In this document: in pieces, positions 187-27,464 of the stretch | Position numbering within the stretch: the stretch's first letter is position 1 | Layout of the letters: each line of letters opens with the position of its first letter | NCBI GenBank assembly: GCA_018065105.1 | Contig: JAGHTX010000098.1 | Location: 1-35,148 of the forward strand | Direction: 5' to 3' | Length of the DNA: 35,148 bases | Origin: Bacillota bacterium | Lineage (GTDB): Bacteria; Bacillota_I; Bacilli_A; Erysipelotrichales; Erysipelotrichaceae | The notes under the pieces: generated by a model | The model's database searches: none | Told to the model about the DNA's origin: nothing | The model's input: only the letters and a program-made list of their open reading frames with translations | Program-made: the position numbers and the translations under genes

Positions 187-208
187 TATATCATACTCTG
201 ACCAATAT

Positions 209-252
209 AAAAAGCCGAAATATGCCTAATTTATCGCATATCTCAGCTTTTT
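209..252 (-). terminator. Intrinsic terminator of the ATP-grasp/M14 cassette
   Basis: 17-base arms 209-225 and 236-252 flank a 10-nt loop. Read on the minus strand the two non-Watson-Crick positions are G-U pairs, and the stem ends in a run of U. It lies 50 nt after the stop at 303. Confidence 0.75.
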
Positions 253-302: not shown

Positions 303-1232
303 TTAAATATTTCGCTTAATTTTCACGATAGAAGTATGGGCATATACCATACTCTTCGCATGAATAAAGAATACCTTCCCTTCTTGGGAAGAAATGATTT
401 TTTCCAGTTCCACATGTGTATATGGATCGTAGATAATGGCTAAAGTCTGTCCAATAAAGACTTGTTCATCCACATCTACCAGAGTTTTTAAGAAACCACC
501 ACTGGAAGATTTAATCGAAACCATACGATCTTCATCGACAATTTCGCTCTTGTATCCACCAAGGACCGGATACGAGATAATGCCTTTTTCATACATAAAT
601 CGTAAAATGGCTTCCGCTGCTTCTTTGGCTGTTTTTTCATCAATTTCTTCACAAGCTTTTGTGTATAGCGAATACGCCTTACAACACCAGATTTGCCAGT
701 TGTAGTTCAAAGTAGTGGTATCGTAAGGACGAGGTGAACGCACTACAATACTTGATAAACCAAAGTGTTTGGCTTCTTCGATATCTTCAAATCCTGTTTT
801 CATCATACGTACGTGGGTTGAGAAATGTCCAGGAATATAGAAGCTGGTAAGCTGTACACCATATTTACAGTCTTTGATACGTTCAAATAAACCGTCCGCA
901 ATACGTTGGGTCGTTTCTCCTAGATTGTATCCAGGAAACATACGGTTAATATCGGTTCCATCACTTGGCCAGAAGCGTGATTCTAAGTTTAAAGAATACG
1001 TATTGGCACAAGGAATCACTAAAATTTTACAAGTATTGGTTAAATATCCCTGGCTTTCTAATTGTTTCAAGCGTTCAATCAATAAGGAACAAATATACAT
1101 TTGTTGCACTTCATTCCCTCTTAATGAACCAATTACACAAATAGAGTCTTCCCCTTTTCCAAATTCATATCCGCGAATTCGGAAGGAATCTCGATATAGC
1201 GACTTTAATTCATATACGATCTTTTCTCTCAT
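303..1232 (-). CDS. AstE/AspA-like M14 family paralog lacking zinc ligands (probable pseudoenzyme)
   Basis: 309 residues, homologous along its length to the adjacent upstream gene, a succinylglutamate desuccinylase/aspartoacylase-type M14 zinc hydrolase. The family needs a His and a Glu in GxHGxE and a second His further on. Here the first motif reads SLRGNE (Arg38 instead of His; Glu41 kept) and the second region reads VQLTSF, with Thr129 where the neighbour has His126. The catalytic Glu region (LEMG in the neighbour) is also not preserved. The substrate-side motif DINRMFPG (about 94-101) and the C-terminal beta domain remain. The start overlaps the preceding stop by four bases (ATGA), so it is translationally coupled. 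Inference: a binding or regulatory partner of the active paralog rather than a metallohydrolase. Confidence 0.75.
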   Translation of the reverse strand: MREKIVYELKSLYRDSFRIRGYEFGKGEDSICVIGSLRGNEVQQMYICSLLIERLKQLESQGYLTNTCKILVIPCANTYSLNLESRFWPSDGTDINRMFPGYNLGETTQRIADGLFERIKDCKYGVQLTSFYIPGHFSTHVRMMKTGFEDIEEAKHFGLSSIVVRSPRPYDTTTLNYNWQIWCCKAYSLYTKACEEIDEKTAKEAAEAILRFMYEKGIISYPVLGGYKSEIVDEDRMVSIKSSSGGFLKTLVDVDEQVFIGQTLAIIYDPYTHVELEKIISSQEGKVFFIHAKSMVYAHTSIVKIKRNI

Positions 1233-2152
1233 TGTTTTCCCTCCAGAATTCTTCCAATCAAACTTCCTTCGTTACAGATTGGATACTTTCGGATAGTAAA
1301 CAATAAACCATCCCAGTCACTGATTACTTCACAAAGCTTGTTTCCACTTAATGGATCGACAATCATTCCAATCACCTGTCCTTTTTTTACAGGTGTGTTT
1401 ACTTCCATTTCACTGATAAACAGTCCTGCACATTGCGCATTTAGAAAACGAATTTCCTGATCATAGCCAATAATAGGTTCCATAACTGGATACTCGTTTT
1501 TCAACATTCCCAACTGGTGCATCGCATTTAATAAACCTTGTACACTATTTTCCCCATATTCGAGGGTCAATCGTGAGCCAATACCCATTTCTAAGACCAA
1601 AGTTGGTGTATTCAATTTGTTTAGGCAATATCCCAACGTTGATTCCAAAATCGTACTTGTAGAGTGAATCCACACAAAATTGGCATTGACCCACTTTGAC
1701 ATAGGAACTAATTTTTCTTTGAACAATTCATTTATTCTTAATTGTGGAAGCTCCACTAAGTACGCATTGCTAGCATGGATATCAATCACCAAATCGGCTC
1801 CCTTGATATCCTGAATAATACAATAGGCTAGATATTCAACCATACTTCCATCTTCATCTCCAGGGAAAATACGGTTCATATCTAGGTCAAACATCGGTAC
1901 CTTTCTTTGAATGGAATCCATTCCTAGTGGATTCATACAAGGATAGATATCAACAATTCCGTCTAATTGGTCATATACTTCTCTAATTTTTTGTTGCAGC
2001 TGATACGCTACGTATTGTCCTTCTAATTCATCTCCATGAATTCCGGTAACCACGCAAATTCTTTTCTTGCTGGTTCCATTTTGAATACGCTGCTTTGTCA
2101 GCTTATATTTCTCATCAATCGGAAGAGAAACGCTCGCAAAGGTCTCAATCAT
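1229..2152 (-). CDS. Succinylglutamate desuccinylase/aspartoacylase family zinc hydrolase (M14)
   Basis: 307 residues with the full M14 AstE/AspA signature: GIHGDE (zinc ligands His39 and Glu42), DMNRIFPG (substrate-binding Asn-Arg, about 91-98), DIHAS (zinc ligand His126) and LEMG (candidate catalytic Glu188). The C-terminal third is the beta-rich domain of the family. Members cleave N-acyl amino acids or related amides in the cytoplasm; the substrate here is unknown. The gene overlaps the upstream transglutaminase gene by 8 nt and the downstream paralog by 4 nt, in an operon with an ATP-grasp ligase and an alpha-E protein. The context suggests it trims or hydrolyses a peptide-like product. 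No signal peptide is visible. Confidence 0.85.
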   Translation of the reverse strand: MIETFASVSLPIDEKYKLTKQRIQNGTSKKRICVVTGIHGDELEGQYVAYQLQQKIREVYDQLDGIVDIYPCMNPLGMDSIQRKVPMFDLDMNRIFPGDEDGSMVEYLAYCIIQDIKGADLVIDIHASNAYLVELPQLRINELFKEKLVPMSKWVNANFVWIHSTSTILESTLGYCLNKLNTPTLVLEMGIGSRLTLEYGENSVQGLLNAMHQLGMLKNEYPVMEPIIGYDQEIRFLNAQCAGLFISEMEVNTPVKKGQVIGMIVDPLSGNKLCEVISDWDGLLFTIRKYPICNEGSLIGRILEGKQ

Positions 2153-2927
2153 ATAAGATTTCCTCCATACTAATTTCTATATCCTGAGTTTGGGAAATAT
2201 TCATTCCATAAAAGATTCCCTTGTTCACTAATGTGTCATGATAATCTCTTCCTCGAGAAAAAATCACATAGTTGTCATCGACTAATAAATCATTGGTAGG
2301 ATCTATGCCATACCAGCGACCGTTCGCATAAAATTCAACCCAGGCATGTGTATACTTTTCTTCACACATGACACCTGCTACATAGCGAGCTGGTATTTCA
2401 GATTGGCGATATAGGCCAATTAATATATGTGCATAATCCTGACAAACCCCTTTTTTATTTGTAAAGGCAGTTTGGGCATCGGTTTTAATATTGGTAGAAC
2501 CTTTTTGATAAGTCATTGTATGATATAAAGCCTTCGAAAGGGCAAGTGCCTTTTGATAAGGATCTTCATAACTTGAAAAAGGTTCTAAGTATTCCTGCAT
2601 TTCTTCATTCAGCTGCGTAAATTTTGTTTGTTTCAAATACACAGGCAATAAAGAATCATCGGTATCGTATTGTGTCCAATCGACTTCCACAAGACTTCCT
2701 ACATATAAGGAAAGCCGATCGTGTTCTCCTTCTTTATATCCATAGATCATAGAATTTGAAAAACAGTCCTTACTTAAAGAGTAGTAATCGGCATTAATAC
2801 GAACCTTATTGGTTAATACACGTTGACGAGGCTGGGTGTTTGGTAAACATTTCAAAGTAAAATAATGATGATTGATTTTGTCGGAAAACGTGAAATCCAT
2901 TGTGTATTTTAATTGAAAAGTTTTCAT
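2145..2927 (-). CDS. Transglutaminase-like cysteine protease/transferase
   Basis: 260 residues. The N-terminal half is a beta-rich region typical of bacterial transglutaminase-like proteins encoded with ATP-grasp/alpha-E genes. The C-terminal half carries the papain-like catalytic triad: Cys162 in GVCQDYAH, His194 in THAWVEFY and Asp209 in DPTN. No secretion signal is seen, so it is probably cytoplasmic. It starts 3 nt after the stop of the alpha-E gene and overlaps the next gene by 8 nt. Known context (Iyer, Aravind and colleagues' work on amidoligases) links this triad of families to synthesis of peptide-like metabolites; the transglutaminase may cleave or exchange amide bonds. The reaction has not been deduced from sequence. 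Confidence 0.85.
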   Translation of the reverse strand: MKTFQLKYTMDFTFSDKINHHYFTLKCLPNTQPRQRVLTNKVRINADYYSLSKDCFSNSMIYGYKEGEHDRLSLYVGSLVEVDWTQYDTDDSLLPVYLKQTKFTQLNEEMQEYLEPFSSYEDPYQKALALSKALYHTMTYQKGSTNIKTDAQTAFTNKKGVCQDYAHILIGLYRQSEIPARYVAGVMCEEKYTHAWVEFYANGRWYGIDPTNDLLVDDNYVIFSRGRDYHDTLVNKGIFYGMNISQTQDIEISMEEILYD

Positions 2928-2930
2928 ATT

Positions 2931-3590
2931 CTACAACAACCCTTCTACACATTCGATGCACGCTGGATAATCAATAATTGTTTCTTCAACACCCGTTTTT
3001 AATTGTTCCATTTTTAATAAATCGTAAGGAAGAATCGTTTTATTTAAACGGTGATGTAAGCTGTCATACGCTTTCTTAATATCTTTCTTTTCCTTACGAA
3101 GACGAAGATACATGTCCATTCTTTCTTGTCTTTGTCCCAGTTTAATAATGTCTCGCACATCGTAGTCCAAAACATTTTCAGAAAGGCTGGCCCAAAAAGC
3201 CAAAATGTGATCGACCACAAGTTGTAAATCCAATAAGAAAGAATCAAATTCATGAATGGATTTCAAATCATCCAAAGCCAATTCTAAATACGTCATTGTT
3301 TCGGTTCCAATTTCATTACGAAGCACGATACAGTTATCATAGGCTCGATATAGATTGGCAATAATACTATCGGTGATGTCTTCGTCTCTTACATATCTTT
3401 GTACAAAATCTGTAGGACTTTCATAAATCATTGGAATTTGTAAGTTTTGGCAATATTCCTGATACATTGTTGGATGATCCAGCATTTCATCATAACAGCG
3501 AAAAAATTCTTTAATTGTTAAGTAGACGCGTTCACTATAACGTCCTAACCAAATTAGGTTGTCTACACGTTCTAACGAGATAATACCCAT
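2931..3590 (-). CDS. Alpha-E domain protein (DUF403), short form
   Basis: 219 residues, predicted all-helical. Family marks are NLIWLGRYSERVY near the N-terminus, the central AYDNCIVLRNEIGTET and the late GQRQERMDMY. Alpha-E proteins are almost always encoded next to circularly permuted ATP-grasp and transglutaminase-like genes, and their biochemical role is unknown; a partner or carrier-like role has been suggested. Many family members are about 300 residues, so this one is about a third shorter, yet it begins and ends with family-like motifs and no frameshift is obvious. The start overlaps the ATP-grasp gene by 19 nt, indicating coupled translation and probably fixed stoichiometry. Confidence 0.8.
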   Translation of the reverse strand: MGIISLERVDNLIWLGRYSERVYLTIKEFFRCYDEMLDHPTMYQEYCQNLQIPMIYESPTDFVQRYVRDEDITDSIIANLYRAYDNCIVLRNEIGTETMTYLELALDDLKSIHEFDSFLLDLQLVVDHILAFWASLSENVLDYDVRDIIKLGQRQERMDMYLRLRKEKKDIKKAYDSLHHRLNKTILPYDLLKMEQLKTGVEETIIDYPACIECVEGLL

Positions 3591-4885
3591 GTGTCCTTGA
3601 AACCTCCTCCTTGACTGGAATTGACAATAAAGCTATCTGGATTACGCGAGAATCGAGTTAATCCACTCTTCCAAACTTTTGTCTCTTTTCCACTTAATAC
3701 GAATACACGTAAATCAGCCTTTCGTTCGACTGTTTCTCCATTTTCTACAATTGGTAAATCTTTAAAATCAATGACCTCTTGAGCAATAAAGCGACGAGGT
3801 TCACGTAACATTTTTTCTATAAAGGCTTCTTTTTGTTCTGGGGAAAGCGTATTTCCAAAGAACACTCCATAGCCTCCGGCTTCCGCAACATCTTTAATGA
3901 CTAAATCATCAAAATGTTCTAAAACGTATTCTTTATCTTTTTCATAATATGGAAGATAGGTTGGCGCATTGTTTAAAATTGGTTCTTCGTGCAAATAATA
4001 CTCAACCATTTTTGGCACAAAGTAATAAATTCCTTTATCATCCGCAACCCCATTTCCTGGCGCATTGATAATCGCGATATTTCCTTTTTTATAAATTTCC
4101 ATTAAATGTGGAATTCCAATTAAGGATTCTTCTAAGAATGTCATCGGATCTAAATATTCATCACTGATACGACGATATAGAGCTCCGATTTTTTCTAAGC
4201 TTCCATCGTAATTTTTAAAATATAAGTAATCTTCTTTAACCACGACATCGTTCGAAGAAACAAGTTTACTTCCCGTTTGTTCTGCCAAATACGAGTGTTC
4301 AAAATAAGCGGCATTCATTCTTCCAGGTGTAAAGATAGCGTTGATTCCTCCCGTATTGACACTATCCATCACTTCTTTTAGTAATTTGGCATAATCACGG
4401 TTTTCTTCCACATCGTTGGTTCTAAATGTCTTTGGGCTGGCTCTACGACATAAATCACGGGCAATCATTGGATAACTGGCACCGCTAGGCACACGTAAGT
4501 TGTCTTCTAATACGTACCACTTTCCATCTTTTCCTTCGACTAGATCGATTCCGGAAATGTGGGAATGTACATGTTGTGGTGGTGTAATCCCTTCGCATTC
4601 CACCAAATATCCCGATGAGGAATAAATAAATTCGGTTGGAATGATGCCATCCTTTACAATTCGTTTTTCCCCATAAATATCGTCTAAGAAGGCATTTAAG
4701 GCATCGACTCTTTGAATCAATCCTTTGTTCAAATAATCAAAATCTTCTTTGGTGATAATTCGTGGAATACAGTCAAAAGGAAACAATTGTTCGTGAAAAG
4801 TATTGTTCTTATAAATTCCAAACTTTACTCCATATCTTTTTAATAAATGGTTAATTTTACTTTGTTGCTCAATTAAGTTTTTCAT
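3572..4885 (-). CDS. Circularly permuted ATP-grasp ligase (DUF404/DUF407, CP_ATPgrasp_2)
   Basis: 437 residues. Diagnostic signatures are EDNLRVPSGASYPM in the first half and NSSQGGGFKDTWVL at the C-terminus, with GGYGVFFG and a late KADLRVFV segment in the nucleotide-binding core. ATP-grasp enzymes form amide or ester bonds via an acyl-phosphate; this permuted branch is thought to make peptide-like products, with substrates unknown. I chose ATG 4885 because AAGGA sits 8 nt upstream; an in-frame GTG at 4906 lies inside a terminator U-tract and is unlikely. It is the first gene of a five-gene cassette. A terminator hairpin stands only about 22 nt upstream of the start, leaving no room for a promoter between them. 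Confidence 0.88.
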   Translation of the reverse strand: MKNLIEQQSKINHLLKRYGVKFGIYKNNTFHEQLFPFDCIPRIITKEDFDYLNKGLIQRVDALNAFLDDIYGEKRIVKDGIIPTEFIYSSSGYLVECEGITPPQHVHSHISGIDLVEGKDGKWYVLEDNLRVPSGASYPMIARDLCRRASPKTFRTNDVEENRDYAKLLKEVMDSVNTGGINAIFTPGRMNAAYFEHSYLAEQTGSKLVSSNDVVVKEDYLYFKNYDGSLEKIGALYRRISDEYLDPMTFLEESLIGIPHLMEIYKKGNIAIINAPGNGVADDKGIYYFVPKMVEYYLHEEPILNNAPTYLPYYEKDKEYVLEHFDDLVIKDVAEAGGYGVFFGNTLSPEQKEAFIEKMLREPRRFIAQEVIDFKDLPIVENGETVERKADLRVFVLSGKETKVWKSGLTRFSRNPDSFIVNSSQGGGFKDTWVLSR

Positions 4886-4906
4886 ACTTCCATTCCTTTC
4901 AAACAC

Positions 4907-4940
4907 AAAAAAAGACGCTCTACCGAAGTAGAACGTCTTT
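4907..4940 (-). terminator. Strong intrinsic terminator in front of the ATP-grasp cassette
   Basis: A 13-bp stem (4911-4923 with 4928-4940, one G-U on the minus strand) is closed by a C(UUCG)G tetraloop and followed by seven U on the minus strand. It can end the flavin reductase operon. Because it lies between the only visible promoter and the ATP-grasp start, it may also act as an attenuator. Confidence 0.85.
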
Positions 4941-4952
4941 GTTCATGCGCCT

Positions 4953-4980
4953 ATTTTAACATGTTTTCAAAATTTTTCAA
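4953..4980 (-). promoter_or_regulatory. Candidate promoter for the ATP-grasp cassette
   Basis: On the minus strand TTGAAA (4975-4980) and TAAAAT (4953-4958) are 16 bp apart, and TG-T precedes the -10 (extended -10). Transcription would start about 4946, just before the terminator at 4907-4940. Confidence 0.45.
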
Positions 4981-26049: not shown

Positions 26050-26886
26050 TTATTTACCAACTTTTTGAATCAAAATGCGAACAGTTTTTATGACTTCATC
26101 AAAGCTTATTTCAGAAGCATAAATATACTTTTTCTGATACGATTTCCACAGATTTTGAATACCACCATCGGAAGCTACCATTTGAATTATTTCCTCGGTG
26201 TTTTCAAACTGACTATTTCGTTTCTGCGATGTTGCGACAAATGCATCATGTAAAACCTGGTAATTGATTGAATCTTCATATAGATTCGTTAATGCATACA
26301 CATCATAAAAATCTCTCATTCGTGTATTAAATATATGCCTTACCAAAATTGTCTGCAGTTTTTCTGCTAAAACTGTTTCCAAATTGTATGCCCATATTTT
26401 AATTGCCCTATCTTCAAGTAAAAGATTGTGAGAATACTCAATTTCTCGAGGAGTAATAATATCTCCTGTAGAAATATCAATTTTTATTGGGGTTATCATT
26501 CTATCAATTATTGCGTTTAACTCTATTCGAATTCCAGGATATTCAAAATCATCCATAATTTTTTCAACTTTCATAATCTCAAAAACAACACCATCATCCA
26601 AAGATATCTCTGATATTTCTTTGATGATTATTAATGCATCTTCTTCACTAAGATTTAAATTTTTAATACTTGTATCAATATCCATTGTAGATCTCATCGC
26701 AACACCGACCATCGATGTTACTAATATTCCACCTTTGATAATAAAATTATCTCTATACTTTGAATATGATAATCTATCTAAAAATCTATCCATCATATAG
26801 ATGCGTAACAACAATCTTGCATCTGCGTTATTTTTACTAGCTAAACTTTTTATCTTCCCTTTAATCTGTGCCACTGTTAGCTTCAC
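26050..26886 (-). CDS. abiEii: Type IV toxin AbiEii (nucleotidyltransferase)
   Basis: 278 residues. AbiEii/AbiGii motifs appear in order: FIIKGGILV, RSTMDIDTSI (metal-binding Asp pair), PIKIDISTGD, then ETVLAEKLQTIL and RMRDFYDVYAL. These are the four motifs of the DUF1814 nucleotidyltransferases; homologs inhibit growth by modifying tRNA 3' ends or related targets and can abort phage infection. It starts with GTG at 26886, sharing one base with the antitoxin stop (TAGTG), with GGAGG 10 nt upstream. All motif residues are present, so it looks intact. Confidence 0.9.
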   Translation of the reverse strand: MKLTVAQIKGKIKSLASKNNADARLLLRIYMMDRFLDRLSYSKYRDNFIIKGGILVTSMVGVAMRSTMDIDTSIKNLNLSEEDALIIIKEISEISLDDGVVFEIMKVEKIMDDFEYPGIRIELNAIIDRMITPIKIDISTGDIITPREIEYSHNLLLEDRAIKIWAYNLETVLAEKLQTILVRHIFNTRMRDFYDVYALTNLYEDSINYQVLHDAFVATSQKRNSQFENTEEIIQMVASDGGIQNLWKSYQKKYIYASEISFDEVIKTVRILIQKVGK

Positions 26887-27464
26887 TAAAGTAATACCTC
26901 CATATACATCCTAAGTAGCTTTTCAACCTTGAATACTTTGGCGTATTCAAATAATCGAATCAAATTCTTATCTTTTCGTTTTATATATGCTTTTATTGCA
27001 GTGGCAAAATCTTGAATTTCAAATTTACTTCTATTTCGAATCAAATCAACTATCGTTCTTTCAAGATCATACATAGGAATGGTATTCCCAAAATTGTCCA
27101 CTACTTCTATTTTTCCAAGGTACAAATACTCTTTCTTCACATAATAAACCTTATATCCTGATTTAATTAATTTTGTCGCATTATATCCACTATATACAGT
27201 TATAGTATAAGATAATGGCTCTCTGTCGATTAGATTATAATAATATAACGCCTCATCGTGAGAAACTACACCGCCAGGACACCGCTTATGAAGGATCCAT
27301 AGTTTATCTACAATCTCATTTGGGGATACATACATACCTGGACCAACTTTCTCATATTCGTTTGCCTTAACATATTTATAAAAACCTTCTCTAGATATAC
27401 TGAGCTCTTTTGATTTTGATACTTCAAGAATGCCTTCTACTCTATCTAATGTCATTTTTCGCAT
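26886..27464 (-). CDS. abiEi: Type IV antitoxin AbiEi
   Basis: 192 residues. The N-terminal winged-helix region (about 1-60, with ISREGFYKYVKANEYEKVGPGMYV) and the central VSHDEALYYYNLIDREP and PMYDLERTIVDLIRNRS are typical of AbiEi antitoxins. AbiEi is known to neutralise AbiEii without stable binding and to repress its own operon. ATG 27464 has AGGTGG upstream. The module is more A+T-rich than the flanking sugar genes and lies between 30-bp direct repeats, consistent with horizontal gain. Confidence 0.88.
   Translation of the reverse strand: MRKMTLDRVEGILEVSKSKELSISREGFYKYVKANEYEKVGPGMYVSPNEIVDKLWILHKRCPGGVVSHDEALYYYNLIDREPLSYTITVYSGYNATKLIKSGYKVYYVKKEYLYLGKIEVVDNFGNTIPMYDLERTIVDLIRNRSKFEIQDFATAIKAYIKRKDKNLIRLFEYAKVFKVEKLLRMYMEVLL

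Follow-up and report, generated by a model that had tools for sequence, protein, structure and literature searches.

The window analysed here comprises 35,148 nucleotides (positions 1–35,148, forward strand) of contig JAGHTX010000098.1 in assembly GCA_018065105.1, a Bacillota bacterium which is placed in the Erysipelotrichaceae by GTDB. An operon of five genes is found near its start on the minus strand, encoding in this order a circularly permuted ATP-grasp protein, an Alpha-E protein, a transglutaminase-like protein, and two AstE/AspA-like proteins which will be called ACTIVE and PSEUDO. Neighbouring genes of the operon overlap or are separated by very short gaps, all of them on one strand. 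The features of the locus are as follows.

207..252, minus strand: hairpin followed by a T run, 3' of PSEUDO, the probable operon terminator
303..1232, minus strand: PSEUDO, inactive AstE/AspA-like subunit in which R38, T129, and Y190 replace His, His, and Glu, with E41 and N96-R97-M-F-P-G retained (PF24827 and alignments)
1229..2152, minus strand: ACTIVE, predicted AstE/AspA-like zinc amidohydrolase with H39, E42, H126, E188, and N93-R94 (PF24827 and alignments)
2145..2927, minus strand: transglutaminase-like protein (PF01841 and PF08379)
2931..3590, minus strand: Alpha-E protein (PF04168)
3572..4906, minus strand: circularly permuted ATP-grasp protein (PF14403), the true start likely being the ATG at 4885
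4911..4940, minus strand: leader hairpin with a U tail, located after the promoter and before the first gene; it is kept in the Bacillota copies of the operon, where compensatory changes are seen
4953..4980, minus strand: sigma-70-like promoter TTGAAA-16-TAAAAT before the leader hairpin (consensus match only)

PSEUDO is the final gene of the operon and overlaps the gene for ACTIVE by 4 nucleotides (ATGA). Its reading frame of 309 amino acids contains no internal stop, so that the earlier description of the frame as intact was correct. Elsewhere in the window (26050–27464, minus strand) a gene of the AbiEii type (type IV toxin-antitoxin) overlaps an upstream gene for 192 amino acids, which is a possible toxin-antitoxin pair.

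Active Site Residues and Family Membership

In a pairwise alignment PSEUDO and ACTIVE are 22% identical (E 4e-14). Histidine 39, glutamate 42, asparagine 93 with arginine 94, histidine 126, and glutamate 188 of ACTIVE are matched by arginine 38, glutamate 41, asparagine 96 with arginine 97, threonine 129, and tyrosine 190 of PSEUDO, the pairing of histidine 126 with threonine 129 being obtained by shifting through a local alignment gap. The original prediction had described PSEUDO as an M14 pseudoenzyme with two of three zinc ligands gone (Arg38 and Thr129) and with Glu41 and the NR-FPG motif remaining (here N96-R97-M-F-P-G), next to a paralog keeping His39, Glu42, and His126, and each of these residues was found as described. 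It had not mentioned a third loss, which is the replacement of the catalytic glutamate by tyrosine 190. PSEUDO thus lacks the combination of HxxE...H ligands and glutamate that marks a zinc enzyme of the AstE/AspA family, and ACTIVE possesses it.

The M14 label itself held only in part. The proteins are M14-like, but they belong to the AstE/AspA branch and not to the PF00246 carboxypeptidases: with the PF24827 profile PSEUDO scored 31.4 bits and ACTIVE 71.7 bits at a curated cut-off of 25, which makes both of them members. A carboxypeptidase (PF00246) label for the pair was rejected, as the whole genome gave no PF00246 match at E<=0.001 and ACTIVE scored 14.7 bits with this profile, below the cut-off of 21.6.

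Among 98 homologues of PSEUDO, position 38 is arginine in all 98, position 129 is alanine in 61, threonine in 29, serine in seven, and proline in one, and position 190 is tyrosine in 95 and phenylalanine in three; histidine at 129 and glutamate at 190 do not occur (0/98 each). Glutamate 41 and the asparagine–arginine pair at 96 and 97 are retained across the homologues. The ligand losses are not a matter of chance, since arginine 38 is fixed and residue 129 is never histidine. Of the two replacements for which fixation had been suggested as a check, Arg38 is thus invariant while Thr129 itself varies, although the loss of histidine at this position is fixed, and orthologs with restored ligands, named as counterevidence at the time, were not encountered among the 98. 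Complete HxxE...H ligands with the catalytic glutamate are present in 93 of 94 homologues of ACTIVE.

It might be argued that PSEUDO is still a hydrolase which binds its metal via a rearranged site. In the D,L-carboxypeptidase Csd4, which is of the M14 type, one histidine ligand is replaced, the first ligand being Gln46, and the glutamate and histidine ligands are retained (PMC4220969); a single changed ligand therefore need not kill an M14 enzyme. In addition, histidine 140 of PSEUDO is invariant in 81 aligned homologues. Csd4 and PSEUDO share a first ligand other than histidine, but Csd4 works as a carboxypeptidase, whereas in PSEUDO two ligands and the general base were lost together, and a cation would be repelled by the arginine which stands in place of the first ligand. 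A rearranged metal site is therefore considered very unlikely.

Predicted Structure and Conserved Positions

Separate AF2 models yielded a mean pLDDT of 88 for PSEUDO and 90 for ACTIVE. The PSEUDO model could be superimposed on the Rhodobacter sphaeroides protein 3cdx and on DoeB (6twm) over 295–298 residues, 298 in the case of 6twm, with a Z score of 28.9 and an rmsd of 2.9–3.0, and on the cyanophycin-dipeptide hydrolase CphZ with a Z score of 26; the ACTIVE model matched the same structural group. The monomer prediction that had been proposed as a check thus yielded an AstE-type fold which is intact in the model of PSEUDO, with the catalytic set gone.

Fifty-one positions of PSEUDO are at least 97% invariant, and they cluster round the old active site (residues 86–112 and 169–182). 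Only one of these 51 lies in the C-terminal domain, compared to 13 of 66 for ACTIVE (Fisher p 0.003), so that this domain is relaxed in PSEUDO. The pattern has the look of a retained binding pocket; it could also be an interface.

Distribution, Age, and Selection

A scan of GTDB genomes yielded 80 loci, the majority of them in Lachnospiraceae, Ruminococcus-type Clostridia, and Bacteroidales. Nearly all of them show the order ATP-grasp, Alpha-E, transglutaminase, ACTIVE, and PSEUDO as far as the contig reaches, and no sixth conserved operon gene was found across the 80 loci. In a maximum-likelihood tree PSEUDO forms one clade (100/100) and ACTIVE another (96/96), separate from each other and standing beside other AstE proteins. 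The stem branch of PSEUDO is long (4.5 changes per site), and its sister relation to ACTIVE could therefore be affected by long branches.

Comparison with the nearest relative (locus L008, 84% identical) gave a dN/dS of 0.041 for PSEUDO and of 0.093 for ACTIVE, values which are approximate since dS is saturated (1.6–2.6). They point to strong purifying selection on PSEUDO. A decaying duplicate was accordingly rejected as an explanation and is judged extremely improbable: 98 homologues over Bacillota and Bacteroidota have the same losses in open frames. The one locus which speaks for decay is that of Floccifex porci (L009, 4259–6765), a broken operon in which the Alpha-E gene is frameshifted, the genes for the transglutaminase-like protein and ACTIVE are deleted, and PSEUDO alone of the pair is left, shortened by 54 residues. 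The earlier view of PSEUDO as a pseudoenzyme and not a product of simple decay is borne out by the fixed losses, the low dN/dS, and the single ancient clade.

A further explanation is that PSEUDO has become an enzyme with a new chemistry, its old zinc pocket (Arg38, Glu41, Tyr190, and an invariant Asn-Tyr-Asn-Trp-Gln segment) catalysing a metal-free reaction. The number of nearly invariant positions, most of them round the old active site, would be in accordance with this, and a long stem followed by stasis fits neofunctionalisation. On the other hand, neither a conserved nucleophile nor a cofactor motif could be identified, and the strict dependence on ACTIVE described below is explained more easily by a partner role. 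We know of no metal-free relatives, and this explanation is regarded as unlikely.

In the family of the window's organism PSEUDO was found in three of 272 genomes including its own, all of them from the same genus, and among sampled genomes of the phylum that of the window was the only one with it. A horizontal acquisition in this lineage therefore seems likely from its distribution.

Pairing of the Two Genes

PSEUDO occurs in 18 of 196 Lachnospirales genomes and in six of 198 Bacteroidales genomes, and the same 18 and the same six also carry ACTIVE; a nineteenth Lachnospirales match to PSEUDO is another AstE protein and was left out of the count. The two genes are adjacent in each of these 24 of 394 sampled genomes, and neither ACTIVE without PSEUDO nor PSEUDO without ACTIVE was found in the 394. 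Three candidates for ACTIVE without PSEUDO (L135, L151, and L152) were rejected as weak matches which represent further AstE proteins, none of them encoded in an operon of this type. In several genomes the pair stands without the rest of the operon, and four of these (G827, G732, G773, and G749) give no Alpha-E match anywhere in the genome; because of these genomes the pair is seen as a unit of its own. The pairing with an intact paralog noted originally thus extends to complete co-occurrence and adjacency, stand-alone pairs included.

With the signal of the other operon genes removed by regression, the distances of PSEUDO and ACTIVE showed a partial correlation of r 0.42, second only to that of ATP-grasp with Alpha-E (0.49). 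Such co-evolution and pairing could reflect a shared pathway instead of contact. PSEUDO might then be a free-standing sensor or carrier of a substrate or product of the pathway which forms no stable complex, the genes travelling together via the common metabolite. Asparagine 96 and arginine 97 and the large invariant pocket region, retained in the absence of the catalytic residues, would suit such a role. So would a second pair in Anaerostipes sp. 992a (L163, 5407–7400, also L100), located directly after a sodium/proton exchanger gene, in which ACTIVE carries H39Y and R94T: this arrangement suggests ligand binding without hydrolysis. Judged from their residues both partners look noncatalytic there. 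It seems that such a pair may be maintained in the absence of catalysis, and for this reason the sensor explanation is not dropped. Against it stand the strict adjacency in every genome, stand-alone pairs included, and the co-evolution above background, which favour physical coupling, as well as the lack of an effector domain in PSEUDO. A sensor or carrier acting on its own is therefore held to be rather improbable.

A 629 amino acid frame in L025 (1231–2955) was considered as a natural fusion of the subunits and rejected, as the N-terminal part fused in frame to PSEUDO is unrelated, probably owing to a chimeric metagenome assembly.

The Leader Hairpin and Nitrogen Genes

A terminator-like hairpin (4940–4911) lies between the promoter-like site (4980–4953) and the first gene of the operon. 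The element has the consensus GAACAAAGGCGTTCTGC-loop-GCAGAACGCCTTTTTT and stands before the operon at most of the Bacillota loci, including many of L008–L049. The hairpin covaries: nine of 13 pairs are changed on both sides, a value as high was reached in 0 of 500 shuffles, and 100% of cells are paired, the latter partly by construction because the training rows had been picked as hairpins. No Rfam match was found for the leader, and the glnA motif (PMC2864571), which was tried as its identity, did not match.

A model with 16 operon leaders in its training set was searched against four genomes; its matches at these operons are a recovery only, those at nitrogen genes are independent. In Anaerostipes the best matches outside the operon precede the genes for PII, the ammonium transporter (Amt), and a second PII, and in another Lachnospirales genome matches were found before glutamine synthetase (glnA) and an ABC-transporter ATPase gene. 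In L020 a match lies by an ABC ATPase gene directly 3' of the pair, followed by a gene for a family-3 solute-binding protein. The other three matches in the genome of the window's organism are not located before recognisable nitrogen genes, and the remaining matches are ordinary terminators or have no assigned role.

Among the genes which NtrC activates most strongly in B. cenocepacia are those of the DUF404/407, DUF403, and transglutaminase-like types, together with glnA and glnB (PMC5491218). As the leader is common to nitrogen genes in relatives and as NtrC activates these genes in B. cenocepacia, nitrogen control is likely for operons of this class, and by extension it may apply to the organism of the window. 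The leader hairpin itself is possibly an undescribed nitrogen-responsive attenuator.

Comparison with Known Systems and Proposed Function

Among the AstE/AspA proteins (PF24827) the pair resembles DoeB/EutE (6twm), 3cdx, and CphZ (8eip) in its full-length fold and in the NRxFPG motif. ACTIVE has the same HxxE...H ligands and glutamate base as these relatives, whereas PSEUDO is without two of the three ligands and the base, and two diverged paralogs which are always encoded together distinguish the present case. To our knowledge no such joint encoding has been noted for DoeB/EutE, 3cdx, and CphZ.

A parallel is offered by the heterodimeric metalloprotease TldD/TldE, in which the metal is bound in TldD only and both proteins are needed for activity (PMC5810440). 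There, too, one paralog has a metal site and the other has none, and a complex of PSEUDO and ACTIVE may be supposed by analogy. The two systems differ in their sequence families, which are unrelated; neither PSEUDO nor ACTIVE gave a PmbA/TldD Pfam match at E<=0.1.

The Anbu-type operon consists of circularly permuted ATP-grasp, Alpha-E, transglutaminase-like, and Anbu peptidase genes (Iyer et al. 2009, as cited in PMC5666114). The first three are also found together in the window, but in the peptidase slot the Anbu NTN-hydrolase has given way to the active/inactive AstE-like pair; there was no match to this hydrolase among the five operon genes and the upstream neighbour. Neither an inactive aspartoacylase-type pair nor the replacement of the Anbu peptidase by an active/inactive AstE pair was found described in the searchable literature other than Iyer et al. 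2009. Thus the operon class was already known, and the pair seems to be undescribed as far as this literature goes.

In many gut bacteria the two genes are without exception passed on as a pair, mostly within what appears to be a nitrogen-starvation operon, and the inactive copy therefore probably works as a partner of the active one and is not a gene in decay. We give about an even chance to the explanation that the pair is a nitrogen-regulated heteromeric amidohydrolase of the TldD/TldE kind, with one catalytic subunit and one ligand-binding, zinc-free subunit. A heteromer and a substrate-sensing subunit had both been proposed in the original prediction, and both may still be supposed; the five-gene operon and its nitrogen-type leader had not been described there. 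The adjacent genes would then encode two kinds of subunit of one enzyme. ACTIVE would hold the zinc site and cut an N-acyl-amino-acid or a short peptide-like compound at an amide or isopeptide bond, and PSEUDO would be its obligate noncatalytic partner, shaping or gating it. PSEUDO would most likely bind the substrate, the product, or a ligand signalling nitrogen status, and may hold a carboxylate-bearing ligand via N96-R97 together with R38. In the window and in most relatives the pair would work with the circularly permuted ATP-grasp ligase, the Alpha-E protein, and the transglutaminase-like protein, the operon presumably being induced under nitrogen limitation. A more far-reaching proposal, possible though rather doubtful, is that the obligate AstE pair replaces the Anbu peptidase in a peptide ligase/hydrolase system of nitrogen starvation in gut bacteria, that the remodelled and zinc-free pocket of the inactive subunit senses a nitrogen metabolite, and that the operon and core nitrogen genes have the undescribed leader-hairpin attenuator in common.

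What the Alpha-E/ATP-grasp/transglutaminase operons do has been an open question ever since they were predicted in 2009. The variant described here, with its own hydrolase pair of the metabolite type and with a leader also found before nitrogen genes, suggests nitrogen limitation as a growth condition and N-acyl or isopeptide-linked amino acids as substrates for work on them, and the pair would provide a clean bacterial case of a fixed dead paralog becoming an obligate partner. As a separate observation, genes for citrate synthase, isocitrate dehydrogenase, and an aconitase-like protein lie 3' of the pair in L038, L039, L042, and L048, a route to 2-oxoglutarate which would fit nitrogen assimilation.
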